Shown in pieces: positions 668-25,400 of a stretch of DNA of 64,000 nt. The stretch spans positions 1-64,000 of the forward strand of contig JAJFKR010000006.1 in the NCBI GenBank assembly GCA_021773095.1. The letters run 5' to 3'. The notes below the pieces were generated by a model. It had not been told where the DNA came from. It saw only the letters and a program-made list of their open reading frames with translations, and searched no databases. Position numbers and translations under genes: made by a program. Position 1 is the first letter of the stretch, and every line of letters begins with the position of its first letter. The stretch comes from Woeseiaceae bacterium. Lineage in GTDB: Bacteria; Pseudomonadota; Gammaproteobacteria; Steroidobacterales; Woeseiaceae.

Positions 668-1488
668 TTGCCCAGGAACTGATTGATACGATCCCCGATT
701 TCATCCGGCTTTTCATCTATCAGCCAATGGCCGGCGTCCTTGATCCAGACTAGCTCTGCATGCGGAATTGCTTCCGCCAGCTTCGGGGCATATTCCGGTT
801 TTTGGAAGGGATCCTTGTCACCCCACAGCACTAGCGTCTGATGCGGAAGGTGCTTAAGCTCGTCGGCAATAGACTGGGTGTATTCCTTGTTCAGCCGCCT
901 AAGATTGCGAAAAAATGCCCGCTTGCCGTCTTCGGTTGACCAGGGCGCTAGATAAAGATCGATGACATCATCGGTCATTGCACTTTTGTTAACTACGCCG
1001 TTCGGCATAAAGCCTCGCATCATGCCAACGAAGTCGCTAAGGCTCATCGCGGTGTCAGCGCCCGGCTGCTGTAGCGGCTCAAATTCTGGAATGGGCCACG
1101 AGTCGAAACAAACACTGTCCATAAGAACGAGCTTCCGAATCTTCTCCGGATAATTGACAGCAATCAACTGTGCGACGCCGCCTCCAACATCATGTGCTAC
1201 AACATCAGCTCTTCGCACCCCCAGGGAGTCCATCAACTGAATGATCATGCGGCTTTGAGCATTTATTGATACATCGGCACTTTCTGGTTTCCCGGATTCG
1301 CCATAATTGAGCAGGTCCGGAGCGATTACACGATGATTTGTGGCAAGTTGCGGAATAATATCTCGCCACATCAGGCTGTTGGTTGGTATCCCGTGAATTA
1401 GAATCACCGGGCTACCCTCGCCCTGTTCCCGAAAAGCAATCTTGTGCCCGTCAATGTACGTATGGTGTTCTGTAATTTTAGTGCTCAT
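664..1488 (-). CDS. Alpha/beta hydrolase, haloalkane dehalogenase/epoxide hydrolase type
   Basis: A 274-residue alpha/beta hydrolase. The HGIPTN oxyanion-hole loop is near residue 32. The nucleophile elbow AHDVGGG puts Asp100 where serine hydrolases have Ser, as in haloalkane dehalogenases and soluble epoxide hydrolases. An acidic GDKDPF loop and the late DAGHWLIDEKP segment with His254 complete the triad. An ATG 10 codons upstream is in frame, but the start at 1488 follows a good GAGGAG and gives the usual N-terminus. The substrate cannot be told. Neighbouring MAPEG and CMD genes suggest processing of reactive or xenobiotic compounds. The stop overlaps the next gene by 4 bases. Confidence 0.88.
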   Translation of the reverse strand: MSTKITEHHTYIDGHKIAFREQGEGSPVILIHGIPTNSLMWRDIIPQLATNHRVIAPDLLNYGESGKPESADVSINAQSRMIIQLMDSLGVRRADVVAHDVGGGVAQLIAVNYPEKIRKLVLMDSVCFDSWPIPEFEPLQQPGADTAMSLSDFVGMMRGFMPNGVVNKSAMTDDVIDLYLAPWSTEDGKRAFFRNLRRLNKEYTQSIADELKHLPHQTLVLWGDKDPFQKPEYAPKLAEAIPHAELVWIKDAGHWLIDEKPDEIGDRINQFLGK

Positions 1489-1587
1489 AACATTCTCCTC
1501 AAAGTGGTGCCAGTTCAAAGTACGTTCAACGTTACTGAACGATCGCAGTGAGAGTAAGATAGGTTTAGGTCAAATCACTATGCACAG

Positions 1588-2016
1588 TCAGCAACAATGG
1601 TGGATCAGAGCGAAAAGGGTCAATACCAACAAGATCAGAACACCGACGCTAAACACGCTTCGTCGTAGTGGTACATAGTTCGAGCCTGTGTGAATGACAG
1701 CGTGGGCGATGCGCGTCGCGACAAACAACCACGATATGACGTGGACGAAGGCACTGACAGCGCCCAGGCCCCACAAGATGAATGTCAACACATAGAACAG
1801 CACCGGTATTTCAAATTGGTTACGAATGCAGTTATTGATTTTGAGGACACTCTCTGGCCAGGCATCGTCAAAAAGTGCTCGCCGATTTTCATCTACCTCT
1901 TCTCTGCGTGAAGCTCTGGACTTGGCGATCGCTAAATGGGCATAGAGAGCAATGACAAGTGTGATTTGAACGAGGACCGGCAGGAATACTAAATTCTGCT
2001 TCATCTGGACATCCAT
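1588..2016 (-). CDS. MAPEG family membrane protein
   Basis: A 142-residue integral membrane protein with about four hydrophobic segments. It has the MAPEG signature NCIRNQFEIPVLFYV in the middle and a RIAHAVIHTGSNYVPLRR segment later. MAPEG proteins include microsomal glutathione transferases and leukotriene C4 synthase; bacterial members are mostly of unknown substrate. Length and topology fit the family. It sits between the CMD gene and the alpha/beta hydrolase gene on the same strand. The start may be either the ATG at 2016 or the one four codons later; neither has a strong ribosome binding site. Confidence 0.88.
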   Translation of the reverse strand: MDVQMKQNLVFLPVLVQITLVIALYAHLAIAKSRASRREEVDENRRALFDDAWPESVLKINNCIRNQFEIPVLFYVLTFILWGLGAVSAFVHVISWLFVATRIAHAVIHTGSNYVPLRRSVFSVGVLILLVLTLFALIHHCC

Positions 2017-2054
2017 CGGTCAGATACAGGACGGTTCAAGTTCGTCTCAGAGCA

Positions 2055-2624
2055 TTAGCTCGCCAGCCTCGTTGCGGCGGGGGCCCATGCCATGGATTCA
2101 AACGCATCATCCAGCGGGGTGTCAGCCATGTGGTTTGTGTAGTTGCTAAGCGTCTTAAAAGTGACACCGAGGACAACTTCCAGTATCTGGGCTTTCGTAT
2201 AGCCTGCGCCAAGAAATGCAATCACGTCCGACTCAGTCACCCAGCCACGCTTTTCAACGACGGTAATGGCAAAGACCCGAAGCGCCTGCAACTTGCTGTC
2301 TGCGATCGGCTGGTCATTTCGAATTGCGTCAATAACGTCGTCGGGCACTTTCTGCATGCCGGCGACAACGGAATGCGCGGCAACGCAGTAGCTGCATCCA
2401 TTCAACCGACTGACAGCAAGAATGATGAGTTGGCGTTCTGTCGCTGAAAATGAAGACTCGTCAAAGATCTTGCCCAGGCTCATATACGCGCGCAACGTGG
2501 CGGGCGACTCGGCAAAAACGCCATAGAGGTTCGGAATGAATCCATAGGCCTTTTCAATCTCGCCTAGCATCTCGGCGGCCGGTGCTTGAGCTGTCTGAGT
2601 TGTATGTATGTCAAAGATATTCAT
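2055..2624 (-). CDS. Carboxymuconolactone decarboxylase (AhpD-like) family protein
   Basis: A 189-residue protein with the CMD-family active-site motif NGCSYCVAAH (Cys77, Cys80, His84), the CxxC-x3-H arrangement of AhpD-type peroxidase-linked disulfide reductases. Length matches the longer single-domain peroxidase-related members that start with a short extension. AGGAGAACAAC precedes the ATG. AhpD-like proteins use the CxxC pair in thiol-disulfide chemistry against peroxides; a decarboxylase role is not supported by the motif. The cluster with MAPEG and PNPOx-like genes favours oxidative or electrophile stress handling (inference). Confidence 0.9.
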   Translation of the reverse strand: MNIFDIHTTQTAQAPAAEMLGEIEKAYGFIPNLYGVFAESPATLRAYMSLGKIFDESSFSATERQLIILAVSRLNGCSYCVAAHSVVAGMQKVPDDVIDAIRNDQPIADSKLQALRVFAITVVEKRGWVTESDVIAFLGAGYTKAQILEVVLGVTFKTLSNYTNHMADTPLDDAFESMAWAPAATRLAS

Positions 2625-6321: not shown

Positions 6322-8085
6322 ATGTTGAATACGAAATTGACTCCAGAACGGTCGGCTGCAACTCATGTTCGAGATGAGCAGATTCGGATGCTGTACGTAC
6401 AATCCCCCCTGCTCTTCGGCGGAATAATTTTCTTGATCGCCGTAACCTCATGGTATCTGTGGGATGGCGTTTCGAAATCGGCTCTGATGACATGGGTAGG
6501 CGTGAACCTTGCCCTGACAACCGCTCGTGTTGGCATTGTAGTAGCTTTCGCACGACGCCAGAAAGGGTCACATGAGGCGGTGCACTGGGCACGATGGTCA
6601 ACGTTGATGTCGGGTATTTCAGGTACAGTTTGGGGCTCACTGGCATTGTGGGCATTGAACCCCGATTCGATCGCGAATGTCATATTCATTGTGACCGTAC
6701 TCAGTTCGATGACGGCGGCAAGTCTAATTGCGCTGGCAGCATGGTTGCCGGCGTACAATTCTTATACATTTAGCTCTCTTTCTCTTTTGATTTTTGGCCT
6801 GCTGGCAGCCAATGACACTGCGTTTCGTTTGCTCGCGGTACTCATTATTGCACTCTTGATAGTGCATTCGTTGTTTGCAATCAATGTAAACCGAAGTATT
6901 CGTGAGACGCTCCGGTTGCGATTCGAGAATCTGGAGCTGCTACAGAGCCTCAAACGGCAAAACGAGATTGCGGTGAAGGCGAGTCTCGACAAGTCTGTCT
7001 TTCTGGCCGCTGCCAGTCACGATCTCAGGCAACCACTGCATGCGTTGGATCTTTTTTTGACCTCAATGCAAGGGTCAAAAACACTGGCTGAACAGTTTGA
7101 GTTGGTGGAAAAAGCGCGTTTATCCAGTCGAACGTTAGGCGAGCTACTGAACGCATTGCTTGACGCTTCGAGACTGGATGCCGGCGCAGTGTCACCCAAG
7201 GAATCCGGTTTCTCGATCAGTCCGATATTGAAGACGCTAAGCTCAGAGTTTGAAGGGCGTGCGAGAAAATCTGGTCTGCAATTGCGTGTTCGCCCTTGCG
7301 ATACCAACGTACATTCGGACCCGGTGCTTTTGGGAAGAATGATCCGAAACCTCGTCGCGAATGCTCTGCAATATACTATCGCTGGCGGCGTTCTTGTCGC
7401 CTGCAGAAGGCGCGGGCCTCTCTTGAGAGTAGAAGTTTGGGATACGGGAATCGGCATTGGTGAGGGCGATCAAGAATGTATATTCGACGAGTTTTTTCAA
7501 CTTGGCAATCAGGAACGCGATCGAAACAAAGGTCTGGGTATGGGTCTTGCGATTGTCAGACGACTATCGATCCTGCTGCGGCACCCGGTCACAGTGCATA
7601 GCATACCCGGCAAGGGTTCTTGCTTCCGGGTGGAAGTGCCGGTGGTCTCTATGCCGACACCCGAATCGTTGTCGCTGCCTGGAGATGACGATGCCCCCGG
7701 TACCGATATCGCGGGTACCTTCGTCATCTTAATCGACGACGATAGACAGGTTCGAGAAGGGATGCGAATCCTGTTGAGAAAATGGGACTGTGAAGTCCTG
7801 CTTGCGGTGGACGCTGAATCGTTGCTCGAAGAATTGATGAGCGCGGAGTATTCTGCACCCGACATCATCATTTCCGACTTTCGCCTCCCTGGTGATTGCG
7901 ATGGCATCGATACAGTGATTGAAGTTCGTCGCAAGTTTGGGCGCGACATACCGGCAATTATTGTAACCGGAGACACGGGTGCCGGGACAATAAAGAAAGT
8001 AGATCAAGCTGGCTGCAGCGTCCTCTTTAAGCCGGTGACAGGAAAAGCCTTGCGTACGGCGATTGCTCTGAATTGCAATCGCTAA
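6322..8085 (+). CDS. Hybrid sensor histidine kinase with C-terminal receiver domain
   Basis: A 587-residue hybrid kinase. It has roughly six to seven membrane segments in residues 25-190 and no large periplasmic sensor. A HisKA domain follows with the phosphorylatable His233 in AAASHDLRQPLHALDLF, then a HATPase domain with NLVANALQYT and DTGIGIG. A receiver domain lies from about residue 470, with acceptor Asp519 in IIISDFRLPG. The ATG at 6322 is preceded by AGAGGTG. The layout matches membrane-embedded hybrid kinases that pair with LuxR-type regulators. The convergent regulator gene, which overlaps its 3' end by 4 bases, is the obvious partner. The signal sensed is unknown. Confidence 0.92.
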   Translation: MLNTKLTPERSAATHVRDEQIRMLYVQSPLLFGGIIFLIAVTSWYLWDGVSKSALMTWVGVNLALTTARVGIVVAFARRQKGSHEAVHWARWSTLMSGISGTVWGSLALWALNPDSIANVIFIVTVLSSMTAASLIALAAWLPAYNSYTFSSLSLLIFGLLAANDTAFRLLAVLIIALLIVHSLFAINVNRSIRETLRLRFENLELLQSLKRQNEIAVKASLDKSVFLAAASHDLRQPLHALDLFLTSMQGSKTLAEQFELVEKARLSSRTLGELLNALLDASRLDAGAVSPKESGFSISPILKTLSSEFEGRARKSGLQLRVRPCDTNVHSDPVLLGRMIRNLVANALQYTIAGGVLVACRRRGPLLRVEVWDTGIGIGEGDQECIFDEFFQLGNQERDRNKGLGMGLAIVRRLSILLRHPVTVHSIPGKGSCFRVEVPVVSMPTPESLSLPGDDDAPGTDIAGTFVILIDDDRQVREGMRILLRKWDCEVLLAVDAESLLEELMSAEYSAPDIIISDFRLPGDCDGIDTVIEVRRKFGRDIPAIIVTGDTGAGTIKKVDQAGCSVLFKPVTGKALRTAIALNCNR

Positions 8086-8696
8086 GCGTTCCCAAGGTGG
8101 AGCAATTCGCGTGCCGCCATGCCGGCCTGTGTCCGATTATCGACATGTAACTTACTGAGTATCGTACTGACGTACTGTTTTACCGTCCCCTCGGTTAGCG
8201 ACATTCGTGAGGCGATCTGTTTGTTAGTGGCGCCGACAGCCAGCAAGGCAAGAATATCCAATTGACTGTCAGTAAAATCAGGTGCGGCGGATATGTCTCT
8301 CTCGATTAGCTTGTGCGGTACGAAAGTCTCGCCATTCATCACTCGAAGTATGGACCTCATGATCGTTTCACCGCTGGCGGATTTGGGCACGTAACCTGCA
8401 GCACCACAATCCAAACAAGCACGAATAGTTGCCGGATTTTCCTCCGCCGAGACCACGATGACGCGCGTAGTTCCGGTTCTTTCGCACAGATCCCTAACAC
8501 TTACCACACCCTGCATGCCTGGCATATCCAGATCAAGAAGAAGGATGTCGTACGAATCACGCCGACGCAACGCTCGATCGACGTCGCCAAAGGAACCAAC
8601 GGTGTCTATCCTGAATGCACTATCAGAGCGCTCAATCCACACTCGAAGCGAATCGCGGAATAGTTCGTGATCGTCTGCAATAAGAATATGTTTCAT
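8082..8696 (-). CDS. LuxR/NarL-family response regulator
   Basis: A 204-residue two-domain regulator. The N-terminal receiver domain starts HILIADDHELFRDSL and carries the acceptor Asp in ILLLDLDMPGMQG. The C-terminal LuxR-type helix-turn-helix contains TNKQIASRMSLTEGTVKQYV and the LHVDNRTQA tail. Its stop overlaps the stop region of the hybrid kinase by 4 bases in a tail-to-tail arrangement. This is less common than a shared operon for cognate pairs and leaves open antisense effects between the two transcripts. Target genes are not evident; the lipoprotein gene at 8845 is the nearest candidate. Confidence 0.92.
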   Translation of the reverse strand: MKHILIADDHELFRDSLRVWIERSDSAFRIDTVGSFGDVDRALRRRDSYDILLLDLDMPGMQGVVSVRDLCERTGTTRVIVVSAEENPATIRACLDCGAAGYVPKSASGETIMRSILRVMNGETFVPHKLIERDISAAPDFTDSQLDILALLAVGATNKQIASRMSLTEGTVKQYVSTILSKLHVDNRTQAGMAARELLHLGNA

Positions 8697-8844
8697 CAGT
8701 CGAAAACCAATTCAAGAATCTTGTGCGATTGTACAAATCATGCTCGTGCCGGTCCGAATCACTTACTTTCGTTAATTATCTTTCTGTTATCTCTGGTGTA
8801 GCGTGCACAGAACAGCATACGAAATCCTGTGGCGGAGAAAGATA

Positions 8845-11178
8845 ATGAAAATGTTCCCAAAGCAGATTCTCCGCTTGTTAGTCCTTGTAGCTTGCCAATC
8901 CCTCGCTGTCGCCGGATGCGACGGTACCAATGACGTTGGAGCCGAAACCCGCGATTCAACAATAACAGCAGGCGAATTCTCGAAAACGGCGGGTGAAGTT
9001 ACAGTGACTACCTCACCGGTCATTGAGACCTACGGCCTGCACGAGATAAGAAGCCTCGTTACAAAGATACATTACCATCCGGGCCCGGGAAGTTTCGACT
9101 TTCCGGCTGAGTCGGACGTTAACGAAGTCATCGAGGTTTCGCAGACTGTGATGCCCGATAATGGATTGGGCTTGAAGCCTACGTTTGATGAAATCACTCT
9201 GGACACGTCTGCCGAGTTTCGCACGGCGTTCCAGCAGGAGTTCGTGCCCAGCGCGCTTGGCGAATTCCGGGTTACAACAACCGTCAAAATTGCCAGCAAG
9301 GAATTGTCGTCAAGCTCGACGACTCTGATCAAAGTTGTGTCTCCGGAACTCATTGGAGAGGCTCGACTTGAGGCCGGTGAAAGATTGCTCGACGGTGAGT
9401 CGCTGCAGCTTGGAAAAAAATACCTGATTATGCATGAGGGTACCCTCGAGCTGTGGACCCGCGGCGCGAGGGCCTGGCACTGGTCGTCGCCAATCCCAAT
9501 CGTCAACGAACCGGGCGCTTATCTGGAAATGCAGAATGACGGCAATCTCGTCATCTACGCTGCGGACGGGCGTGTCGTCTGGGCTACGGGAACAAACCTT
9601 ACAATGCCGCTGGGTGCGATCCCGCACCTGAAATTGCAGATCGACGGCAATGTTGTGGTGGCGTACACGAGGCACGTGCCAGTCGTTACTCCTGATAATC
9701 CGCTAGACGGCGTGCTCTGGGACACGCATACGCATGGGTTCAGCTGGATGGAGCGAATGGACTATGTAATTGCCGATATTCCATTGCGCGAGCTGGCGAT
9801 ACCCGGGACGCACGAGTCTGCGACCTACGATCTGGACAGAAACAGATGGGCCGATGACGGCAACATCACTGAAGGCGAGTGGGACAAAGCTACAAAAGCA
9901 CGGCCAAGCTGGATAGAGCGCTGGGCGACGGCGCAAGAGGAGGATATATTCGCTCAGCTGAACGATGGCATACGCTACCTCGACTTTCGCCTGTTTTTCT
10001 TACCTGAAGTCAATTCAACTTTTTTCCAGCAGAAGGAGGGCTATCGTGCCGTACATTCGTTGCTCGGTCCTCGGCTTGAAGACCTTCTCTCTCAGGTCAG
10101 GGCCTATATCGACCGCAATCCGCGGGAAATCGTGATTATCGATTTCCAGCAGGTGTTTGTACAGTTCGGCTTCAGACACGATGCTCTGCAGAACACCATC
10201 GTCGAACTATTGGGCGAGGAGATCGTGATTCCGTATACGGTCGACGGTATGGAGCGGACACTGAACGAACTTTGGGAAAGTGGCCAACAGGTCATCCTTC
10301 TCTATCCGACTAACCCGTTTCCATTACCTCCGTTGTTCTGGCCGCGCGACCATGCGTTGCAAAGTAAATGGCCGAACAAACAATCGGGCCAGGGCGTTAT
10401 GGACGTCCTGGCAGACGACGTGATCGGCAATTCGGCAAACGATGGGAAACTCTGGGTCGTTCAGGCCGTTCAAACCCCTGATTTCGGGGGCATCCTCTCT
10501 AACATTGACGCCATTGGGAAAAATAACTGGAGAGGCTACAGTTCGCTTAAGGACGTCGGAGCCGATACTGACACGTTCCTCGCGAAGTGGCTCGACGGCT
10601 GGCGTGGCGGCATTGTTTGGGCGTCCGGAAGTGTCGGTGGAACGGCCAGTGACATCCCCCAGTTGTGTTTTCAGAATGACGGCAATGTTGTAGTCTCGAC
10701 GAGCGCAGGGCCGGTTTGGGACTCGGGTACTTTCGAGAGGCCGGTTACAATCGTACGGGAGGGGTTCGGCCTGCCGTTTCCCGTTAACGTGTCCGTGATT
10801 CGGCCACCGGGGAAAACGTTTGTGATGCAGAATGATGGCAATTTGGTTATCGCACCAGAGTTACCCCCGGTTATCGAAAACAGGATCGACAAGTGGCCTG
10901 CCGGAAGGGCAGTGTGGGATTCATCGACACACGGAAATCCCGGTTCAGAATTGATCTTTCAGGGTGACGGAAATCTCGTGATTTGGGGAGGTCACCAGAA
11001 ACTAAACATCGTGATCGCGGATTTCTATAAGAGCACCTTTCCTTTTATCAATCGGGTTGTCGAGCACAATTTTCTGCATGACCAGATCTATAATCAGCCT
11101 CCACCGATACCGCGTTTGAATCACATTTCGACATTGACAAAGGGTTCGTGCAGAGAGCCCGACGGAACGATACGATAA
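8845..11178 (+). CDS. Lipoprotein with PI-PLC-like core flanked by bulb-lectin repeats
   Basis: A 777-residue protein starting at the ATG at 8845, behind GGAG; the 14-codon upstream extension would spoil the signal. The N-terminus is hydrophobic and ends in AVAGC, a lipobox. PI-PLC X-domain features include LAIPGTHESATYDLD (His323), DGIRYLDFRLFF, VHSLLGPRLEDLL (His404) and EIVIIDFQQVF. These two His residues match the general acid/base pair of this superfamily. QxDGNxV bulb-type lectin repeats occur before the core (about residues 230 and 265) and after it (about 610, 662 and 706). The likely product is a surface- or periplasm-anchored phosphodiesterase that targets glycans or glycolipids. 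True substrate specificity cannot be read. Confidence 0.85.
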   Translation: MKMFPKQILRLLVLVACQSLAVAGCDGTNDVGAETRDSTITAGEFSKTAGEVTVTTSPVIETYGLHEIRSLVTKIHYHPGPGSFDFPAESDVNEVIEVSQTVMPDNGLGLKPTFDEITLDTSAEFRTAFQQEFVPSALGEFRVTTTVKIASKELSSSSTTLIKVVSPELIGEARLEAGERLLDGESLQLGKKYLIMHEGTLELWTRGARAWHWSSPIPIVNEPGAYLEMQNDGNLVIYAADGRVVWATGTNLTMPLGAIPHLKLQIDGNVVVAYTRHVPVVTPDNPLDGVLWDTHTHGFSWMERMDYVIADIPLRELAIPGTHESATYDLDRNRWADDGNITEGEWDKATKARPSWIERWATAQEEDIFAQLNDGIRYLDFRLFFLPEVNSTFFQQKEGYRAVHSLLGPRLEDLLSQVRAYIDRNPREIVIIDFQQVFVQFGFRHDALQNTIVELLGEEIVIPYTVDGMERTLNELWESGQQVILLYPTNPFPLPPLFWPRDHALQSKWPNKQSGQGVMDVLADDVIGNSANDGKLWVVQAVQTPDFGGILSNIDAIGKNNWRGYSSLKDVGADTDTFLAKWLDGWRGGIVWASGSVGGTASDIPQLCFQNDGNVVVSTSAGPVWDSGTFERPVTIVREGFGLPFPVNVSVIRPPGKTFVMQNDGNLVIAPELPPVIENRIDKWPAGRAVWDSSTHGNPGSELIFQGDGNLVIWGGHQKLNIVIADFYKSTFPFINRVVEHNFLHDQIYNQPPPIPRLNHISTLTKGSCREPDGTIR

Positions 11179-11392: not shown

Positions 11393-12679
11393 TTACTCTC
11401 GAACAATATCAACGAGGTCTTCCGGCTTTAGCTTGAAGCGTATGGCATTGCCTTCGTGAAGGCCTCTGAATTGTGCACCGACATACTCGACAACCTGCTG
11501 CCTGTCTTCCTCCGGAATTTCGGCTTCGGTAGCCATGTTCATGACGTTGTCGGCATTAAACGACGTCCACTCTAAAACGCATCGCCTAACCGCCTCTCTC
11601 ACAAAGTCGCGATACGCGACGGCGGCCTTTTCAGGCGTTCCTACTTCGGCGCGCAGCGTCTTGTAGTTCTCAGCCGATGCCAGGTAAGCATCGATATAGA
11701 CTTCGCGCAGCAGGGAAACGTTATTTAGTTCATACATTCCGATGAGCGCATCTATATATGCCCCATCATCCATCGTGATGAAAGACATCGGGGCAAGATC
11801 GGCTTTTAGGAGTGGAATATTGGATGTAACACGCGAGGTTCTTTTATTCACATCATCAAAAGCTTGCAAATAAGGAATGTGAACGATTAGGAAGAAAGAT
11901 TGCTCAAAGGGATCAGTAATCGCAGCCGCTTTCTCTATGATGATAATGAATTCTTCTTCGATCTCGAATTCATCGTTAAGCGGTGTGTAGCTTGAATGCG
12001 TGATACCGGCAGGAAGACGGCGTAACCTGCCTGCCATGGCCGGGTCAATTAGCAATCCGTCAGAAAGCAGGGCGTGAATATTGCAGATATCCTGCCGGGT
12101 GATCCCGATGTCTCCGAGATTATCGACGAGGTACTGTATCGCTTCCTTGTGGTTTAGGATCATCACCGCTTCCTTGCGGTCCTTGCCGGTGGCTTCTTCG
12201 CCAAAGCGTATCAATTGCTCGGTCTCAAGGATGTTATAGGTGTTTCCTTCCATACGAGAAGATGCCCAGGCCAGATCAACAAGCAACCGCTCAAGGATAC
12301 GTCTTGCATATGTTCCGGCGGGCAGGGGTGGTCCGGCTGGCTGGCCGGCCTCGTGCAATTGCTCGCGGTCCGGCTCACTCAAGTAGAAGGTTCGGTCCGG
12401 TATGTAGTTGTCCAGAAATTCCTTGTTGTACATCTTGGGGGCGCGCCGGTTATAAGGCGTTTGCAGATAGGCGCGCACCACGGCTGACCCGGCGATCGTG
12501 TAGCCCGTTGCCCGCGCTTTGCCAACCATCTCAAGCTTGTCTTCATCCGTCAGGCGCCTAAGCGTGCGCCACATCGTCGTCTCACTGACTTCCGGTGCGA
12601 CGTTTTTGCGTATGTCTTCCCGGCCAGTCCCCGGATGGGCGGCGATGTAATCGAGAAAGGCCTGATCGGTTACGGGCAT
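11393..12679 (-). CDS. Fic-family protein (probable AMP-transferase), class II type
   Basis: A 428-residue protein. An N-terminal winged-helix-like region (about 1-70) is followed by an inhibitory helix with SSRMEGN (Ser140, Glu144, Gly145). The Fic motif is HIPYLQAFDDVNKRTSR (267-283), the variant with DVNKR in place of the classical GNGR. The catalytic His267 and the Arg residues are kept. The preceding inhibitory helix makes it a class II Fic, autoinhibited by the motif Glu. Such enzymes transfer AMP to target proteins. The N-terminal DNA-binding-like domain and repeated TGAAAYGATT sites over its start suggest self-regulation. No neighbour encodes a separate antitoxin. Confidence 0.9.
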   Translation of the reverse strand: MPVTDQAFLDYIAAHPGTGREDIRKNVAPEVSETTMWRTLRRLTDEDKLEMVGKARATGYTIAGSAVVRAYLQTPYNRRAPKMYNKEFLDNYIPDRTFYLSEPDREQLHEAGQPAGPPLPAGTYARRILERLLVDLAWASSRMEGNTYNILETEQLIRFGEEATGKDRKEAVMILNHKEAIQYLVDNLGDIGITRQDICNIHALLSDGLLIDPAMAGRLRRLPAGITHSSYTPLNDEFEIEEEFIIIIEKAAAITDPFEQSFFLIVHIPYLQAFDDVNKRTSRVTSNIPLLKADLAPMSFITMDDGAYIDALIGMYELNNVSLLREVYIDAYLASAENYKTLRAEVGTPEKAAVAYRDFVREAVRRCVLEWTSFNADNVMNMATEAEIPEEDRQQVVEYVGAQFRGLHEGNAIRFKLKPEDLVDIVRE

Positions 12680-12710
12680 GAAATGATTCCTACGTTCTTA
12701 TGAAACGATT
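12678..12710. promoter_or_regulatory. Two direct TGAAAYGATT half-sites at the fic start
   Basis: ATGAAATGATT (12678-12688) and ATGAAACGATT (12700-12710) are direct copies spaced 22 bp start to start, about two helical turns. The first overlaps the initiation codon of the Fic gene and the second lies just upstream. The same 10-bp core recurs in two palindromes further upstream, which suggests one DNA-binding protein recognises all of them. Confidence 0.5.
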
Positions 12711-12748
12711 ATCTATTTAAAATATATAGAAATTTCTGTTTCGTCAAG

Positions 12749-12777
12749 AAATCATTTCATCTATTTTGAAATGATTT
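12749..12777. promoter_or_regulatory. Palindromic operator candidate 1 upstream of fic
   Basis: AAATCATTTCA and TGAAATGATTT form a perfect 11-bp inverted repeat with a 7-base spacer. It lies about 70 bp upstream of the Fic start in an AT-rich stretch that probably holds the promoter. Confidence 0.6.
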
Positions 12778-12872
12778 TGCCATACGTCTATGAATGGGCT
12801 CCTGCAACGATACGCCGTATCTATGAAACATATAAGTCACTGAGTTTTATCGTACATCCTTCCTACCGATCA

Positions 12873-12899
12873 AATCGTTTCACGAAGAATGAAACGATT
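12873..12899. promoter_or_regulatory. Palindromic operator candidate 2 upstream of fic
   Basis: AATCGTTTCA and TGAAACGATT form a perfect 10-bp inverted repeat with a 7-base spacer, the same geometry as the palindrome at 12749 but with C/G in place of T/A at one position. It may serve the same regulator or mark a second promoter. Confidence 0.55.
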
Positions 12900-13481
12900 C
12901 TTGGTCATCTTCACGACCATTGCCCTGCCTGTTGATTTGCAACGAAATCTAAGCCAAAAACGGCTCTCTATCGCGATTCGTGACCGACCAATGGGACATT
13001 GACGAGGCTACGGCGAAGTGTCCGAGTCTCCGGAATATGTTGGAGCGCCTCGAAGAACTCAGGACAAGAAAGCTATCATAGAGTCTTACCAGGCTAATGC
13101 CATTACGCTTTCGCGATGAACCACTCAACGTGTTTATTTACGTACTTGGTTGGTGACGATCATCGGTCGGATCCAGCAGGCGGGCCACGATACGCAGAAA
13201 TAACGCAGCCGCCGGTCAACAATGCCGCGGTGATTCAAATGAGCGCTCGGTTGGGGCATCAGCAAGTCGCCGGCGGGCTCCCACAAGTGGAAAACGCGTA
13301 TTGCGGCAATAAACGTAAAACCCGATAGTTATCCGCTGGATAGTCGGTGTTTTCACCGTCAATCTACTTCGATAATAATCTGTACCTGAAGCAGATCGAA
13401 CGTGCACTCATCGCCTCTCCGCAGTTCTGTGTGCCAACAACAGACGCCGCTACCGAATGCGGGACCAGTCTGGGGAAAATA
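12900..13481. other. Intergenic stretch with a possible gene remnant
   Basis: No gene of convincing length lies between the fic operators and the autotransporter start. A short plus-strand frame at 12965-13081 ends in a coding-like run (DQWDIDEATAKCPSLRNM, LERLEELRTRKLS, stop). It could be the C-terminal tail of a degraded gene, but I cannot assign it. The frame continuing upstream of the autotransporter ATG to a GTG at 13347 encodes no signal-like sequence and is taken as untranslated. Confidence 0.35.
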
Positions 13482-16400
13482 ATGAACGATACGCGGATCA
13501 CCGGGTTTCCATCGGGAATACCTGGACTCATGTCTATTCTCTTTACGCTCCTATTTCTCGGCGCAGGCATTGCGCTCGCCGATGTCGACGTCTCCGATAC
13601 TGTAATCGAAGGCACCGACAACGACGACACAATCGCCGTTTCCGGCCCCACCGATGTCAGCGCCCTGGCACTGATTGCCGAGCCTGGCAAAGCAACAGCC
13701 ACCGCAACCGTGGTCGACGCAAAAGACGGCACAGATTTCGTGAGTACCAGTGACACCGTCACCTCCACGGCCGATGCCTCCGGCGCATTCGTCGCGCCAC
13801 TCCTGTTCGACGATGGCGACCTCATCCCGAACGGCGACGATAAGGAAATCAAACTCTCTATCGAAACCGAAGCGACGGCAACAGGCCTCGAGGGCGGTGA
13901 CGGCAATGACACGCTCCTGAATGGCGCCCCCATCGACAGCTTCGCGATCACAACATCGGGCGGCACCGCGGACCAGCTCGACGTGTCACTAACCGAGGAC
14001 GCAACGGTCAAGTCCGAGTCCACAGCCAAGTCCAGCGCTTTCGGCATCAAGGCCGGCGACGGCGATGATGCAGTCACAGCGAACAACCCCATTGACGCGA
14101 CGGCCACGGCAACGAGCGGCGCCCTCACCGTCGGCGTTGTTATCGGCGACTCAACCAACACGACGCGCAACGTGAACAGCAAGATGGAGGCTACCGCCAA
14201 GGCCGAGGCCGAAGCCACCGGCATCGAAGGCGACAAAGGCATCGACACCGTTACGATCGCAGACGATGTAACGACGGAAGCAACTGCCATCAGTGGCAGC
14301 GCAGCTGCGTCTATCGGCGTGGAAGTCAGCGGCTCGGCATCCACCGTCGTCAAATCCGAGGCGAAAGCCACCGGCACTGCCGTTTCCACCGGCGCAGACA
14401 ATGACACCGTTACGAACGCGGGCACGCTCACAGCAACATCGACCGCGCTCGCCGGCGCCGTTTCCTTCGACATGGAAATTGCCAACCCGGCACCAGCCGG
14501 CGGCGGCGAGAAAAAGAAAGACAAGGAAGACAAGTCCTCGTCCGAAACCAGCGTAACCGCAGAAGCCACCGCGACGGGTATCGACACCGATGGCTCAGCC
14601 GACACCCAGGACAAAGACTTCAATATCGATTTCGTCGACAACAGAATCGTAGTCGACTGGCACAACAATGAAGTGTCCACAGGCGGTGACGACGTCGTCG
14701 ACAACCGTGGCGACATCACGACGACTGCTCTCTCGGCCAGTCGCAGCGATGGCGCAGCCATCACGATAGGCACCGCCGGCTCCGCCGAGTCGAAGTCAAA
14801 TTCGACGTCCAAGGCAACGAGTACGGGTATCGCCACGGGGGGAGGCAGCGACCAGATCACCAACACCGCGATTATTAAATCAACCTCCGGCGCAGCAGCC
14901 AGCGCCGTCAGTCTCGGCCTGGCCGCAGGACAATCATCCGACGAAAACAACGACATCAAGCTGACAACCAAGAGTACGACCAAAGCTGAAGCGACAGCCA
15001 GTGCCATAGGCATCGACGCCGAGGGCGACGCGAGCCAGAAAACGCTCAGTGGCAACGTGTCCGTCGGACTGACCGGCCTGACCACGAATGTTCAGTGGGG
15101 ACAGGTAAGTGCCGCAGCTGACGACGTTGTCGACAACGCCGGGGAAATCATCATCCTGTCCGGCGCAACGGCCGACTCGACTGAAGCCAGTATAGAGATC
15201 CAGGCCTCGGGCTCCGTCGAGTCCGACTCCAGCGCCACGGCGAAAGCCGATGGCATTGCTATCAATACCGGTGCGGGCAGCGATACTGTCGTCAATATCG
15301 GTGCGCTATCCACGCTCGTCTCCGCCGACGCAGGCGCGGTCGGGCTCTCCCTGAGCGTGACTGAAGCAACCAACGACAAGGACGACGATCCACCCGGCGA
15401 CAAGAAAGACAAGAGCAACATCAAGAGCGAAGCCAGCGCGACAACAACAGCCAGCGCGATCGGAATTGATGCCGAAGGCACCGCGCACGACAAGAACAAT
15501 GTCGTCAATGTCGACATCAGCGGCAGCGGCCTCTATGTCGATGTCGATGTCGAATCCACATCGCTTGCGGGCGAAGACACCGTCGACAACGACGGCACAA
15601 TAACGTCCATCGCAAACGCCACGAGCGGCGCCATTGCCGCATCCGTCGATATCCAGGCAGCAGGGTCGGTCGAATCCAAGGCCGACGCCAAGGCGACGAC
15701 CAAGGCAGGTGGTATCTACACAGGCGGTGGTGAGGACACGATCGACAACTCCGGCGGCATCACGGCCGTCGCGACCTCCACGTCCGGCGCACTGTCGGTC
15801 GGAGTCACTGTTGAACAACCGAGCACGGAAGAAGATCCGGTAACCGGCATCCTCGACAAACTCAAAGGCCTGTTTGCCTCGACCCACAGCACCGCCAACG
15901 CGACGACCGTGGCCACAACCTTTGGTATCGATGCCGAAGGTGAAGAGCACGACCAGTCCACAACGTTCTCGGCCTCGATCGACGGCGATGGCATTGCCAT
16001 CACGTTCGACCATGAAAGCCTGACGAGCAGCAGCGACGATATCGTCGCCAACAGTGGCGCGATCAACCTGCACAGCATCGCCACGAGTGGCGCTGGCGCG
16101 GGCGAAGTGCGCGTGCAAGCCGGCGGCACGGCCTCATCTGAGGCCAACGCCAAAGCCACCGCGAAAAGCACGGGCATCAACACGGGTGGCGGCAGCGACT
16201 CGATCTCTCACTCGGGATCGATCATCGCCGACTCCTTCGCAACGTCCGGCGCCGTAGCCGTCAGCTTCTCGCAGGACGGCCCGGGGGCCGAGTCCAAGGC
16301 CGAAGCCAAGGCAACATCCGAATCCGAGTCCATCGGCATCGCCGCGGACAGCGGCGCCGATACGATTTTCAATGTCGCCCACTCAATCAGCGAGGACGGC

Positions 16401-19400
16401 ATCTCCTCCTCGTTCCACTATGAGAAGACCGCCGCCAGTGGCGACGATATCGTCGGCTCCACGGGGTCCGTGGAAGCCTTCGCGACCTCGACCAGCGGCC
16501 TGGTTGCCGCCGCCGTTACGATTGACGGTTCCGCCAGCACGAACGTAAAAGGTACCGCCAAGAGCAATGCCATTGGCATCGAGACCGGCAACGGTGATGA
16601 CCAGGTCAGTAGCGACGGCGTGGTAGGCGCAGCCGCAACCTCCACGGCAGCCGCCGTGGCGGCCAGCGTCGGCACCAACTCCGAAGACAAAGGCAAAGGC
16701 AAGGCCAAGGTCGAAGGCGAAACACTGGCAGAAGCCACAGCAACGGGTATCTCCACCGATGGTGGCGACGCCGATTCGTTAATAGACTTTTCACTGACCA
16801 TCAATGGCGACGGCATCGTCTCAAGTTTCGAAACCTCAACGACAGCCGCATCCGGTGACGACCTTATCGAGGCCCGCGGCTCGATCACGAGCGTTGCCAC
16901 GGCGACGAGCGCGCTCGTCGAAGTTCCCGTCCAGATCAAGGGCGCCGCAGAAGCCAAAGCCGACTCGGAAGCCAAGGCAGAGGCCTGGGGCATCAACACC
17001 GGTGGCGGCACCGATGCCATCGACAACCGGGCCAGTATCGACGCAATATCAACGGCAACAGCGGCAACCGCCAGTGTTGCCGTCAGCACCAAGGGCAACG
17101 CGATCTCCAATGCAGGTGTCCTCGGAGCAGGCACAACGGCGAATGCCAGTGCAACGGGCATCTCCAGCTCCGGCACGGACTACGCCAAGTCATTAACCGT
17201 CGACACGAACATCGACTTCAACAGCATCGGCGTTGAAGTCAACGTCGAATCAAGCAAAGACAGCATGACCACGGACGGCATCGACACGATCGCCAACAGC
17301 GGCAATGTCAAGACGTTCAGCACAGCGACCGCACCTCAGGTCACGGCAGCCGTCACCTCGAAAGGTATTGCTGCGTCTGTTGGACGCGCAAAGGCGAATT
17401 CAACCTCGACCGCGATCGAGTCCGGCAACATGGGTGACACGATCGACAACGCCGGTGATCTCCACAGCACTGCTTTGTCCAGCGCCTACATGGCCAACGT
17501 GGCCGTGACCAGCAAAGGCCTCGCTGTTGCCGGTAACTCCACCTGGGACGGTGGCACCGAAGCCGAAGCTGCGGCAACGGGTATCGATGCGGACAATGGC
17601 TCAGTCTCGACACACACAACCAACGTCGAAGTCAGTCTCGAGCGCGCACAGATCGTTTACACCTCCGAAACCCTGTACGCATCGGGCGATGACACGATCG
17701 TAAATACAGGTGAAATCACAACGATCGCCGGCGCGCTGGCACCGGGCGTCAGCGTCGCGGTTGCTCCAAAAGGCGTCGCTGCAGCCGTTTCAACCTCAAC
17801 TGCGAAATCCGAGTCGACGGGCATCAAGGGTGGCGACGGTAACGACGACATAGACAACACGGGACGGATCGAAAGCCACTCCGAGGCCATCGCCACCACG
17901 GCTAATGTTGCTGTCACAAACACAGGCGCCGCCGTTGCAGCCGACTCCGTCTGGGACGGCGGCACCAAGGCAACCGCGAACGCCACGGGTATCGCGGGCG
18001 ACGGCGGTGATCGCAGCAAGACCACGCGTCTCGCCATCGGCACGGACGAGATGAGTTTCAGCTCGACCACAGAAGTCGCTCAAGGCAGCGACACGATTTA
18101 CAACGAGGGCGATATCCTCGCCGACGCCAATGCAGGCGCCGCATCCGTCAGCGGCACCTACGTCGGCAAAGGCATAGGCATCGCTACAGCAACGTCGACG
18201 TCCAAGGCCGAAGCCACAGCCATCGACGCCGGTGAGGCCGAAGATGACGACGTGGTCGACAACTTCGGCGACCTGGAAGCCAACGCTCGCTCGGGCGCAG
18301 TTTCGAGTTCGATCAGTTACACGAACTCAGGTGTCGCCATCGCGGCCGACGCTTTCTGGGACGGCGGCACCGGTGCAGAAGCAAAATCCAGTGGTATTAA
18401 GGTCGGCGGTGGCAATGATCTCATCAACAATGCAGGCAATATCGAGACCTCCTCGATCGCGGTAGCCGGATCGCTCAGCGTAGGCGTGGCCATCAAAGGC
18501 GTGGCCGGCGCCGTGGCCGCCTCTACGGCCGACGCACACACGATCGGCATCGATGCCGGCGAAGGCGTCGATACAGTCAATAACCAAGGTAGCGTCGATA
18601 CAATCGCCAGTGCGACCTCCGGCTCCGCAGGCGTAGCGGTTGCCGGCTCCGGTGTTGCTCTCGCAAGCGCCTGGTCGACAAGTAACTCGACCGCAACAGC
18701 TATCGATACCGGCGATATTGCCGATGACGATGAGGTCACGAATGATGGCGACCTGTCAGCGTTCGCCAACAGTAACGCCGTCTCGGCATCCGTATCCGTC
18801 ACCAAAGCCGGCGTTGCCGGCAGTGTTGGCGCCGTCTGGGACGGCGGTACCAAGGCGGATTCACGCGCGCGGGGTATCGATGTTGGTGCGGGACTGGTGG
18901 GCGACTACATAGCCAATTCGGGCAATATGGACATCGATGCCGTTTCTGTCACCGGCGCTGCATCAGTCAGCGTTGCGCTGGCAGGTGTCGCCGTATCCGT
19001 TGCCACTTCGACGGGCACCTCCGACGCGACAGCAATCGATGCAAGCCAGGGTGATGATGCCGATACGGTTCTCAACTCCGGCAATCTCGACGTCAACTCC
19101 GATGCGTTTGCCGCCACGGTAGGCGTAACGATAACCAAGGGTGGCGTTGCCATCGCCACAGACTCCGTTTGGGATGGTGGCACCAAGGCAACCGCACGCG
19201 GCCGCGGCATCGAAACAGGCCAGGGCGCGGACGAGATCCAGAATGCCGGTAATATCGACGTGCTGTCGATCTCGGGCACGGGCTCGGTGCAGGTTGCATT
19301 GCCGATCGCCGCTGGTGTCGGCATTGCCGTGGCCACAGCCACATCGAACGCTGATGCCACCGCAATTGATGCAGGCGAAGACGAAAGCGACGACCTGGTC

Positions 19401-22400
19401 CTCAATGAAGGCGACATCGATGTTGATGCCGACGCAGTAGCAGCATCCGCTGCCGTGTCCTTCACGCTCGCCGGCGTCGTTGGCGCGGGCGGCACGCCCT
19501 GGGACGGCGGCACGACGGCGAATGCCCTCGCTCGTGGCATCTTTGTCGGCGAAGGCAACGACACTGTGCAGAACACCGGTGTTATAGAGGTTGATTCGCT
19601 CGCCACTGCCTCCGCTACGAGTGAAGCCGTTGCTATCGCAGGAGCAGCCGGCGCTGTCTCTTCAGCAAATACAACGTCTGAATCGCTGGGCATCGATACG
19701 GCGGGCGGTGACGACATCATTATCAATAGCGGGCGCGTCGATACGCACGCACTAGCGAATACGAATACGGTCACCGCTGCCGGAGCGAAATTTGGTGTTT
19801 CAGTTGCCGGCAACAATGCCTGGGACGGTGGCACCATGGCTATCGCCTCCACGACCGGCATAAATGCCGGAGCTGGCGAGGACATCATCGATAACGATGG
19901 CGAAATCGAAGCCACTGCACAAGCGATCGCCCCGAACGCGACGGTTACGTTTACGGTCGGCGGTGTCTCGGCATCCATCTCGACAGCAACAGCAAGAGCT
20001 GATGCGACAGCCATCGATGCTGGCGACGACAACGACGTCGTCGATAACTCCGGCGACCTGACGCTCGGCACGACGGCCATAGCGGCTTCGATGAACGCCG
20101 CCATTACCGGCATCGGGGTTTCCGCGGCTGGTGACAGCGTCTGGGACGGCGGCACCACGGGTACGGCTGTATCCACCGGCATCACGGGTGGCCAGGGTGA
20201 AGACACCATCATCAACAGTGGCGATGTCGATGGTACGGCACTGGTCGTAGCACCCTCCGCGTCGGTTGCATTCACGGTTGGTGGCGTTAGTGCATCGACC
20301 TCGACCGCAACCGCGAACGCCGAGATTACGGGCCTCGACGGTGCCGATGACGACGACCGCATCGACAATTCCGGCGACCTGACCATCTCCTCCGACGCCA
20401 TAGCCGTCGCGGCCAACGTCGCGATCACGGGCGTAGGCGCGACAGTCGCAGCGGACGCTGTCTGGGACGGTGGCACGACATCGACAGCACTTGCCGACGG
20501 CATCGAAGGTGGCGCGGGCAACGACACGATCACGAGTGCCGAAGGCAACCTGGTCGACGCAACAGCGACATCGAAGGCCGAGTCGGCGAGCCTGAGCTAT
20601 TCGGGTATCGGATTCGCCGCGTCAACGAGCACGGCCACAGCCAATGCCGATGCCAATGCCATCAACGCCGGCAGCGGCGATGACATTGTTATCAATGACA
20701 GCGACCTGACCAGCCTGGCGGATGCCAATGCGGCGGGCGTCAGCGTCTCGGTCACGGGTATCGGTGGCGCGTTTGCCGCCGACTCGATCTGGGATGGTGG
20801 CACCAAGGCGAACGCCAATGCCACCGGCATCAACCTCGGCACCGGTAACGACGAGGCTGCGAACACGGGCACCATTACCACGACAGCCGACTCGGACACC
20901 TTGTCGGTTTCCGGAGCAATCACGGGATACGGTGTTGCAGGATCTTTCGCAGCCTCGACCTCAACTGCCGACGCGGCCGCCATGGACGGCGGCGAAGGTG
21001 ACGACCTGCTCATCAACGAAGGCACCCTGAACAGCAAGGCCGAAGCAGATGCAATCGGCGTGAGCCTGTCGATGTCACAGGTCGGCGCAGCTATCGCCGG
21101 TTCCTTCCTCGACAACGCAACACGTGCCAACTCTTCCGCCACAGGAATTGAAGGCGATGAAGGTGTCGATCAATTGCGAAACGCAACGGACGCCTATATC
21201 GATGTAACGTCCAACGCAACAACGAGCGATGCGGCGATCGCGATAGCGCTCTTCGGCGTCGCAACAGCAGATTCCAATGCGGTCTCAACGGCCGAGGGTA
21301 TCGGCCTTGATGGCGGCGACGGTGACGACGTCATCCTCAATGAAGGCACGATAAAGGCAACGAGCATTGCCGAAGCACAGTCTCGCGCGATCACCATCTC
21401 GATCGCCAGCGGAGCTCCTCCGGTCGAGGAAATTGTCACAACATCCGCCAATGCGGTTGGCTTCTCCGACACCACTGGCATCGCTGGCGGGGCCGGTGAC
21501 GATATCATCGAGAACCGCGGCATGATCGATGTCTCGAGCAAAGCGCTTTCCGTAGGTCAGACGTTTAGCCTGACGGGCATCGGGGCAAATGTCAGCGAGG
21601 CCAACGCCGACGCTGTTGTAACCGCAACCGGTATCAGCGGCGACGCTGGCGCGGACAGCCTCGTCAACAGTGGCCAGATTATCGTTGGATCACTGGCCGA
21701 CACAGACGCACGCAATATTGGAGTGGGCGTTGTCGGACTGACCGTCAGCAAGGCGAACTCGACAGCTACAACCAATTCCACGGGTATCGATGGTGGAGAC
21801 GACAACGACACAATCATCAATACCGAATCCGGTTTCATCGACGTTGTCTCGGTTGCGGACACCTACGCGAATGCCGTGACAATCCAGGTCGCCGGCTCCG
21901 GCGCAACCGAGGCCCGCGCGGCTCCAGTCGCAATGGCCAACGGACTCGTTGGCGGCGCCGGCGACGACGGCATCCAGAACGACGGGGACGTCACTGTAAT
22001 GGCGAAGTCAAGGAGCTACGCAGCTTCGACCACCGTTACGGTCTTCGGCGACTCGAGCGCGAAAGCCGGTACCGAGGTCGAGAGCGAGGCAACCGGCATA
22101 TCCGGCGGGCTCGGCAACGACACGCTCATCAACACCGGCACGCTGCAGGTTGGGCCGGCAGCCGATGCCGACGCCGACGCCTTCTACATGTCCGTACTCG
22201 AAGCCGACGCCTACACGGCCGGCTTTTCTGGCAGCGGTGAGGCACAGTCCGGCGCATATGCCGAGACGTCCACGACTGGCATGGATGGCGGCGACGGCGG
22301 CGACCTGATCGTAAACTCCGGTGATATCGATGTACTGGCGACAGCCCAGAGCAAGACGTCAGCCAGCACCATGAGTGTTTTCGGCGGCGGGGACGCGAAA

Positions 22401-25400
22401 GCGAAGTCCGGGGCCTTCACCGACGCAACGGGTTTTGCCGGCGGCATGGGCGATGACGTGATAATCAACGAAGAAACCGGCACGGTCGATGTCACGGCGG
22501 AGACGAATACGTTTGCAGATGCGACGAGTTACTCGTTCGCCGGTGGCGGTGACACGGGTGCACAACTCGAGGGCGATTCCACTGCGATCGGTTTCCGGGG
22601 CGATGCCGGGAACGATGAGCTGTTCAACTACGGCACGCTCAACGTTACGGCACTCGCCGACCTGACATCCAAGGGTGGCACGAGCGCGACCTTCGACGGC
22701 GGCAGCACCTACGCAACGAGCAAGACGGCGGCGACGTCGTTTGCTGCGGCAATGAAAGGCGGTGATGGTAACGACACGCTCGCCAATTCAGGCGACACCA
22801 GCGTTGCAGCCACGTCCATCGCGCGTGCACAGAACAACTCCAGCAGCACGGCCTCGTTCTCGAGCGACAATATCGCCGGGTCGATCAGCGAAGCCACGGC
22901 AGAAGCCGTTGGCCTCGCCGGGGGCGATGGCACGAACATCCTCTCCAATGACGCAAACCTGGCCGTTACAGCCAACAGCACCGCGTACTCCTTCGCGTAC
23001 GCTAATGGTGCGACGTTCTCGTTTGACGGCGATGCCATGTCGCGCACGGACAGCCTGGCTGTCTCGACGGCCACGGGAATCCTCGCAGGTGACGGTGACA
23101 ACGTCGTGCTCAACGACGGCCAGCTGACCGTTACAGCCACAGCCGGCACAGCGGAAGACCTCGTGTCGTCGATCGTCTCGTATCGCCTGCAGGGCGACTA
23201 CCAGGATTCACCGGAACGACCCGACGACAAGATTGCCGAGGAAGTCGACGAAGAACCTGACTGGTCGGACTCCAGCGTGCAAGCGCAATACTCTAACGGT
23301 GACATCCTGTACTGCACGGGCGCCGATTGTGATATCGATACAACGGTAAGCAGCGCCGGACGTCATTACGAAGTCGTTGTGACATCGGTTGATCATGACA
23401 ACGACAACTCGACAGATCCGATAGACGAGTACAGCTGGGAGCCGGTCGAAGCGCTCGACAACACGCCAGACATGAGCGACGCGGCCAACCAGGCGCTGTA
23501 TGCGGACGGCGACATCGTTGCCTGCCGCGCCGTATCCTGTCGCGAAGAGACGGATATCAACTCAACCGCAACCTTCTGGCAGCTCGTCGTAACCACGAGT
23601 GGCGATCCACCGGTCGACGAATACGATTGGCAACCGGTCATCGGCCTGTTCATCGAGATTTCCGCCGACATCACGGAGGCGAGTTTCCCGAGCTACTCGG
23701 TCGCCAACGCAAATGGCATGGACGGCGATGGTGACGCCGGTGCGATCGGTAGTACCGAGGCCTACGCCTACGGTGTTCGGCTCGGCGATGGCAATAATGA
23801 GATTCGTTCAAACGACCTGATTGTCGAGGCCGTGGCAAACACGAATGTGAATGTCGCCTCGGATGGTGACGTAATCGGCGACGCCTGGGGTACCTCAACG
23901 GCAAATGCCGTGGCAGAAGCTGTCGGTATCGTGCTTGGGATCGGCGATGACACAGTCTGGAACACCGGTCTGCTGTCCGTGACTGCCACACCCTCGGCGC
24001 AGGCACATACTGCCGCCACGGCTGGTGACGGTATCTGCATCTGGTTCTTCGTCTGGCTGTGCGCCGGCGACGGCACATCAACGGTCAACGCGAACGCTGA
24101 CTTCACCGCAATCGCGAGCGGAATTCTCGCAGGCGATGGTGACAACACGATCGTCAATGACGGCACGATCTCCGTATCGGCCATACCAACGATTGCAACG
24201 GACGTGCGCCGCGATGACGACCAGTACGCCGCCATCGCCAGGGGCGACAACCGTACTATGACGGTCACTTCCAGCTCGACGGCCATAGGTATCCAGACAG
24301 GTGTTGGCAACGACACCATCATCAACAATGGTGACATCGTGGTGGAGGCTTGGGATGTCCTTAGCAGCTGCGAAGAAGAAGCCGGCGACTGCGGCGTTAC
24401 GATAGACGACCAGTCCGTCTTGAGCGCGATCGGCGTTCAGACCGGTGACGGCGATGACGCGGTAACAAACAACGGCACGATCTCGGCATTCACGTACACC
24501 GATAGTATTCCCGCAACAACGATCGCCATCGATCTGGGTGCTGGCGATGACACGCTCACGCTGGGCGATGGTTCGTCGACGATCGGCACCATCACGCTTG
24601 GCGAAGGCGATGACCGGCTGATCCTGATGGGAACCCCGGTTGCAATGGAAGATGGCAGTGCAGTGTTCAGCCTGCCGGGAGGCGCGGGCTACGACGGCCT
24701 GCTCCTCTTCGGTGACGGCTCGTTTACAGCACAACTCATCGGGTTCGAGCATGCAACGAAGTACAACCCCGGCACCTATTGGCTGCCAGGGCTTGCGCCT
24801 CTCAGCACGCTGACCATTGACGGTGGCACGCTGGCGCTCGGGTCGAGCTACGACTTCCGCCCGGACGGGGCTTTCTTCACTTACTTCGATGTCGAGGGCG
24901 AGCATGGCCTGTTCGATATCGAAGGCAGCTCAGTTCTGGATGGTGCGATCACGGTAAAACGGCGCAGTGACGGTTACATTTCCGACGACAGCCGCTACAC
25001 GCTGGTAGCCGCAAGCGGCGGTGTCAGCAATGCGTTTGCCGATATCACCCTGCCGGAATCGCGGCCACTGCTGAGCTTTGCTCTCGAACAGACGCCAACA
25101 ACGGTGGACCTGGTTATCAACGCCGAACCGTTCGAGTCTATGGCGCTCGATCGACTGCACCGCTTTGTTGCCACGAACCTGACAACGATTGCTGACAATG
25201 CAACGGGTGAGTTCAATACGCATATGGGCACGATCCAGAACATGGAGGACGGATTTGAGATCGTCTACGCAAGCCTCGCACCGGATACCTTCCAGGCATT
25301 GACCGCCAATACAGTATCCATGGCGCATGAGACGACGCAGTTGTTGCGCAATCACCTGAGCGATGCACGTGCCTTTGCGCGTGGCGAAACGCCAGTGGCA

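Follow-up and report, generated by a model that had tools for sequence, protein, structure and literature searches.

The fic locus and its upstream repeats

The window, i.e., the whole 64-kb stretch of DNA that was analysed, carries on its minus strand a fic gene preceded by an array of short repeats. Features of the gene and its upstream region are listed below, with distances counted from the fic ATG.

11393..12679, minus strand: fic, encoding a 428-aa Fic-family protein (Pfam Fic PF02661, 4.5e-6)
12679..12688, minus strand: P4, proximal half-site AATCATTTCA, overlapping the fic start codon; slot kept at -9
12701..12710, minus strand: P3, proximal half-site AATCGTTTCA, -31; slot kept at -30/-31
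12719..12747, minus strand: predicted sigma-70 promoter of fic, TTGACG-17-TATTTT (consensus scan)
12750..12759, plus strand: P2, proximal palindrome half-site, inverted, -80, 2 bp from the -35 box
12767..12776, minus strand: P1, proximal palindrome half-site, -97
12803..12812, minus strand: D4, distal, weak/degenerate site TATCGTTGCA (TGCAACGATA), -133; slot at about -122 in orthologues
12824..12833, minus strand: D3, distal, weak/degenerate site ATATGTTTCA (TGAAACATAT), -154; conserved slot
12873..12882, plus strand: D2, distal palindrome half-site, inverted, -203
12890..12899, minus strand: D1, distal palindrome half-site, -220

The surroundings of fic include a divergent 4338-aa ORF (13347-26363), highly repetitive and with a barrel-like C-terminal end, which resembles a giant surface protein of the autotransporter type; a 791-aa ORF (8803-11178) with a weak B-lectin match under the cut-off, whose sequence suggests a secreted phospholipase-like protein; and a hybrid histidine kinase with a LuxR-type response regulator opposite it (6322-8696, Pfam).

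Exact copies of TGAAAYGATT were found at six sites within 12679-12899 and nowhere else in the window, where 0.49 would be expected, and none of 100 shuffles reached six copies. The six copies reported upstream of fic by the sequence-only reading are therefore all exact and unique in the 64 kb; its start at 12678 was wrong by one, the first site beginning at 12679. Both palindromes read AATCRTTTCA-N7-TGAAAYGATT. Identical 7-base spacers had been claimed for them, of which the length of 7 was retained while the spacer sequences proved unlike. The description of six sites also overlooked the two weaker ones, D3 and D4. Since these occupy slots that are filled in orthologues, the array comprises eight sites in two equal modules, namely one four-site module present twice, with offsets of 0/17/66/87 and 0/17/66/88 bp. 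The predicted promoter sits within the proximal module, which adjoins the -35 box, with P3 on or just past the predicted transcription start and P4 running into the fic ATG. No promoter was evident by eye in the distal module.

In the 3.41-Mb genome, which is about 89% complete, a search allowing up to 3 mismatches found the palindrome only at the two places upstream of fic. The single 10-mer occurred 24 times, 6 in the array and 18 elsewhere, indicating that the arrangement, and not the word, is the special part. The 18 copies outside the array form no palindrome in the 3.4 Mb, and this search had been proposed beforehand as a check.

A class II Fic protein with a predicted winged helix

The Fic (Fido) fold of the product was recognised by Pfam PF02661 with 27.8 bits against a cut-off of 24, FICD was matched at 1.5e-9, and NCBIfam had no model for the Fic domain. 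In place of the canonical HPFx[D/E]GNGRxxR, the protein has the degenerate motif YLQAFDDVNKRTSR (which reads QAFDDVNKRTSR), where Q272 takes the position of FICD's catalytic His in the alignment. Residues Y270, Q272, F274, D276, N278, K279, R280 and R283 were invariant in 65/65 aligned relatives. Ahead of the Fic motif, SSRMEGN conforms to the class II pattern [S/T]xxxE[G/N] and is aligned to the FICD motif, and E144, G145 and N146 of this inhibitory motif are invariant as well. The full-length structure prediction was poor (mean pLDDT 52) and only its N-terminal domain was used, so the assignment of Q to the position of the His rests on sequence alignment. Because Q replaces the catalytic His and the other nucleotide-site residues are kept, the Fic domain may be a nucleotide-binding sensor or an altered enzyme and not a normal AMP-transferase, and AMP transfer would be lost or changed.

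When the first 80 residues were modelled, residues 1-65 formed a predicted winged helix with three helices and a two-strand wing, with a pLDDT of ~80 over residues 1-50 and lower values beyond, and VIA-align gave Z scores of 9-10 to MarR, MecI, FeoC and other winged helices. The winged-helix-like N-terminus noticed in the sequence-only reading was thus borne out by structure prediction.

SoFic, a solitary anti-phage Fic, is similar in being solitary and in having an inhibitory helix and a winged helix. However, the PADLOC SoFic model matched the window Fic over residues 128-241 only, with 38.5 bits and not over its full length, and the Pfam SoFic-like_C domain and the catalytic His (here Q) are both lacking. 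Two other Fics of the same genome (L112 and L127) scored 365-407 bits to this model.

Arrays and words in related fic genes

A scan of bacterial genomes yielded 57 orthologues, 66-80% identical, with the same array upstream, in gamma-, alpha- and deltaproteobacterial, desulfobacterial, rhodothermal and gemmatimonadal records. Spacing and conservation were determined on a thinned set of 41 loci, with counts given for measurable loci. The P1-P2 offset was 17 bp in 40/40 loci, the P2-P3 offset 48 or 49 bp in 37/37, the P3-P4 offset 21-23 bp in 38/38 and the D1-D2 offset 17 bp in 30/30, and the distance from module to module was 112-116 bp in nearly all loci. Mean information was 1.59 bits for the site columns and 0.55 for the remaining proximal region, where the best conserved stretch outside the sites was the TTGA of the -35 box. 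Eight loci had the proximal module alone, indicating that this module is the core.

An all-against-all comparison of flanking ORFs revealed no common neighbour beyond a close Rhodobacteraceae group, and none shared with the window. Among eight other genomes, the palindrome was present in seven, at fic save for a weak match and the remnant of a duplicated fic that retains the promoter only; the genome of L027 had no palindrome at the threshold used. This remnant is a second palindrome in the genome of L023, 7 kb from fic, where the duplicate of a fic promoter has decayed and its gene is missing. With no common neighbour and with the palindrome at fic, it is the gene plus its array that moves between genomes.

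At L164 (2022-2105), a fic promoter with palindrome and half-site has survived beside a duplicated upstream gene, and the fic coding sequence has been lost. L022, L024 and L057, from three Rhodobacterales genera, have identical Fic parts and near-identical promoters, which suggests recent transfer, probably by plasmid.

Searches of plasmids and genomes also detected relatives at 33-46% identity with unchanged domain order, many of them located on plasmids, and relatives of the clade with Q in the Fic motif were present in 42/369 genomes of the class. The plasmid location, together with a spacing by whole helical turns that iterons likewise have, would suit an array acting as a replication or partition iteron; the array might otherwise control the divergent autotransporter gene at ~13484. 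Either role is extremely improbable, since on chromosomes and plasmids alike the sites keep their distances from the fic start codon, rep genes next to the array are the exception, and other loci do not share the autotransporter.

The promoters of the distant relatives carry arrays of other words, which differ by Fic clade as follows.

Word TTGCGCSTA: helix type RRTLQYRL
Word TGGCGCGA: helix type RRTLQRRL
Word CTGCGCCA: helix type ARRTxQRxI
Word TGTCCWAT: helix type xKTLQRRL
Word GGCYGWTA: helix type ERxxxRWL
Word GCGACATATAA: helix type PPRMLQRRL

When the commonest 8-mer was compared with shuffles, significant arrays were obtained for 31/54 distant relatives at p 0.05 and 20/54 at 0.01, against 5/158 and 2/158, respectively, of the control windows taken from the same loci. 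The other 23/54 missed p 0.05, and some of them, e.g., the PPRM group, show clear arrays by eye.

Arrays were also found at fic genes of other kinds. The positive control L115, a close homologue of CccR of Yersinia pseudotuberculosis (411 bits, 3e-122 to 7XUX), has five promoter copies of TGTAGATAA, matching the footprinted AGATAATCAT of CccR. These copies, upstream of the ORF at 988-2196 (minus strand), stand mostly at 23-bp steps and give more sites than the footprinted pair of CccR. Among generic HTH-type fic loci, 11/33 had significant arrays versus 2/63 control windows; these loci were therefore dropped as a negative set, and other windows of the same loci were used instead. The short Doc-like genes that lack an HTH (L102, L106, L119 and L124) had no array at p 0.05. 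Two of the 11 array-bearing loci are the strong SoFic genes of this genome, each with a promoter array of its own word, TAGTAAAG in seven copies for L112 (G000:C22) and AATCGACA in nine copies for L127 (G000:C20). A palindrome guessed for L112 gave no match in the genome search, and TGTCGAT-N3-ATCGACA, the word at a different fic gene in the genome, was too unspecific to count as private, with 75 places at 2 mismatches.

The recognition helix of the winged helix was compared with the word. Among the orthologues, the six with TTGCA for TTTCA at most sites are exactly the six whose recognition helix begins with [DN][DN]P instead of the usual VSE-like residues. In a tree from which the winged-helix domain was left out, VSE to [DN][DN]P and TTTCA to TTGCA changed together twice, both changes being concordant and one of them lying between the sisters L044 and L051. 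RRT to KT and GCGC to GTCC also changed together twice, in L088/L089 and, independently, in L154. Over all pairs of the family, helix and word similarity were correlated (Mantel r 0.31, p 0.0005), and the correlation was gone after controlling for Fic-domain distance (partial r 0.015, p 0.40), indicating that shared descent accounts for most of the link. The case for coevolution therefore rests on the four concordant changes, which are few and chosen post hoc, and with two pairs each a sign test has no way of becoming significant.

The array is best explained, and with high probability, by self-regulation through Fic, because it accompanies fic from phylum to phylum without a common neighbour, is found almost only at fic promoters among the genomes searched, and has a word that differs by Fic clade and in two cases changes with the recognition helix, and because the N-terminus of the protein is a predicted winged helix. 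Good support for this reading comes from comparing more than 100 related genes, and repression as its direction would follow from the placement of the sites and from CccR. The sequence-only reading had left the choice open between control by Fic itself and by an unlinked repressor. An unlinked host regulator binding the array in place of Fic would be in line with the 18 single 10-mers elsewhere in the genome, but it is very unlikely: the array follows fic whatever the neighbours, is almost limited to fic promoters, and shifts its word by Fic clade and with the Fic recognition helix. A regulator with a single conserved target that switched its specificity in step with that target would be odd.

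Known Fic regulators and the proposed mechanism

A possible role in the control of fic was suggested for Fic-fused HTH domains by Kinch et al. 2009 (PMC2686095). CccR was established with a reporter, EMSA, footprinting and ITC as a repressor of its own gene that acts at AGATAATCAT-N26-ATGATAATCT (PMC9755527), and its structure was deposited with that paper (PDB 7XUX). The window fic would therefore not be the first case of a self-regulating Fic; its array varies a known design and the mechanism is not new. In the open-access papers searched, CccR was the only Fic found to bind its own promoter, and earlier reports may exist.

CccR resembles the window Fic as a solitary class II Fic with a DNA-binding domain and inverted 10-bp half-sites in its own promoter; the window Fic likewise combines a predicted winged helix with specific inverted half-sites in its own promoter. 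The two differ in that CccR has a C-terminal HTH and an intact HPFGNGNGR, whereas the window Fic has an N-terminal winged helix and Q for the His. CccR has two half-sites, 26 bp apart and near the -35 and -10 boxes, whereas the window fic has eight in two modules.

In the mechanism proposed from the sequence, the array would serve as fic's own operator and be bound by the winged helix of Fic. Each 17-bp-spaced palindrome would take up two protomers, and additional ones would sit on the two direct half-sites. Bound Fic would block its own promoter, given a palindrome at the -35 edge and half-sites on the transcription start and start codon. The distal four-site copy would most likely add cooperativity or a loop.

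CbFic2 of Coxiella burnetii is likewise a class II Fic with a DNA-binding winged helix; in contrast to the window Fic, the winged helix is C-terminal and the motif intact, and DNA is reported to switch the enzyme activity. Own-promoter binding was not found in the part of this report that was consulted (PMC10628234). The main effect of array binding by the window Fic might instead be activation of its own promoter or, by analogy, a DNA-induced switch in the state of its Fic domain; the reported driving of CbFic2 by DNA into a dimer with altered activity (PMC10628234) and the position of the distal module far upstream of the promoter would agree with this. Such a role is unlikely, since half-sites at the -35 edge, transcription start and start codon suit repression, and CccR acts as a repressor at sites close to -35 and -10 (PMC9755527).

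Phd-Doc operons are similar in that a Fic-fold gene is autoregulated, and K, as in the NKR of the window Fic, is allowed by HPFx[D/E]GN[G/K]R, the relaxed motif under which Doc falls (PMC4454073). In Phd-Doc, however, a separate antitoxin binds DNA, whereas the window Fic has the DNA-binding and Fic domains in one protein, and the window fic has no neighbour gene conserved across phyla.

Class II is said to comprise ~80% of Fic proteins, and its roles and control are almost unexplored (PMC9755527). Tight self-repression through a fused DNA-binding domain has been demonstrated once so far, and the present results suggest that it is common among HTH-bearing fic genes. Three features were absent from the open-access papers searched, with the proviso that earlier reports may exist: the N-terminal winged-helix clade with invariant Q, the doubling of the four-site operator and the wide occurrence of arrays at fic promoters. 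Tentatively, the clade with QxFxDxNKRxxR may represent a widespread class of single-gene repressor cassettes. Their Fic domain would have abandoned AMP transfer to serve as the ligand-sensing half of an autorepressor, and every branch would have evolved a private operator word that keeps paralogues within a cell from cross-talking. The arrays supply testable protein-operator pairs, including natural switches of recognition-helix specificity, and lead to a large clade with Q for the catalytic His, whose biochemistry was absent from the open-access papers searched.

Among the densest arrays found was that of the L088 promoter, with ten TGTCCAAT-type sites in 250 bp.
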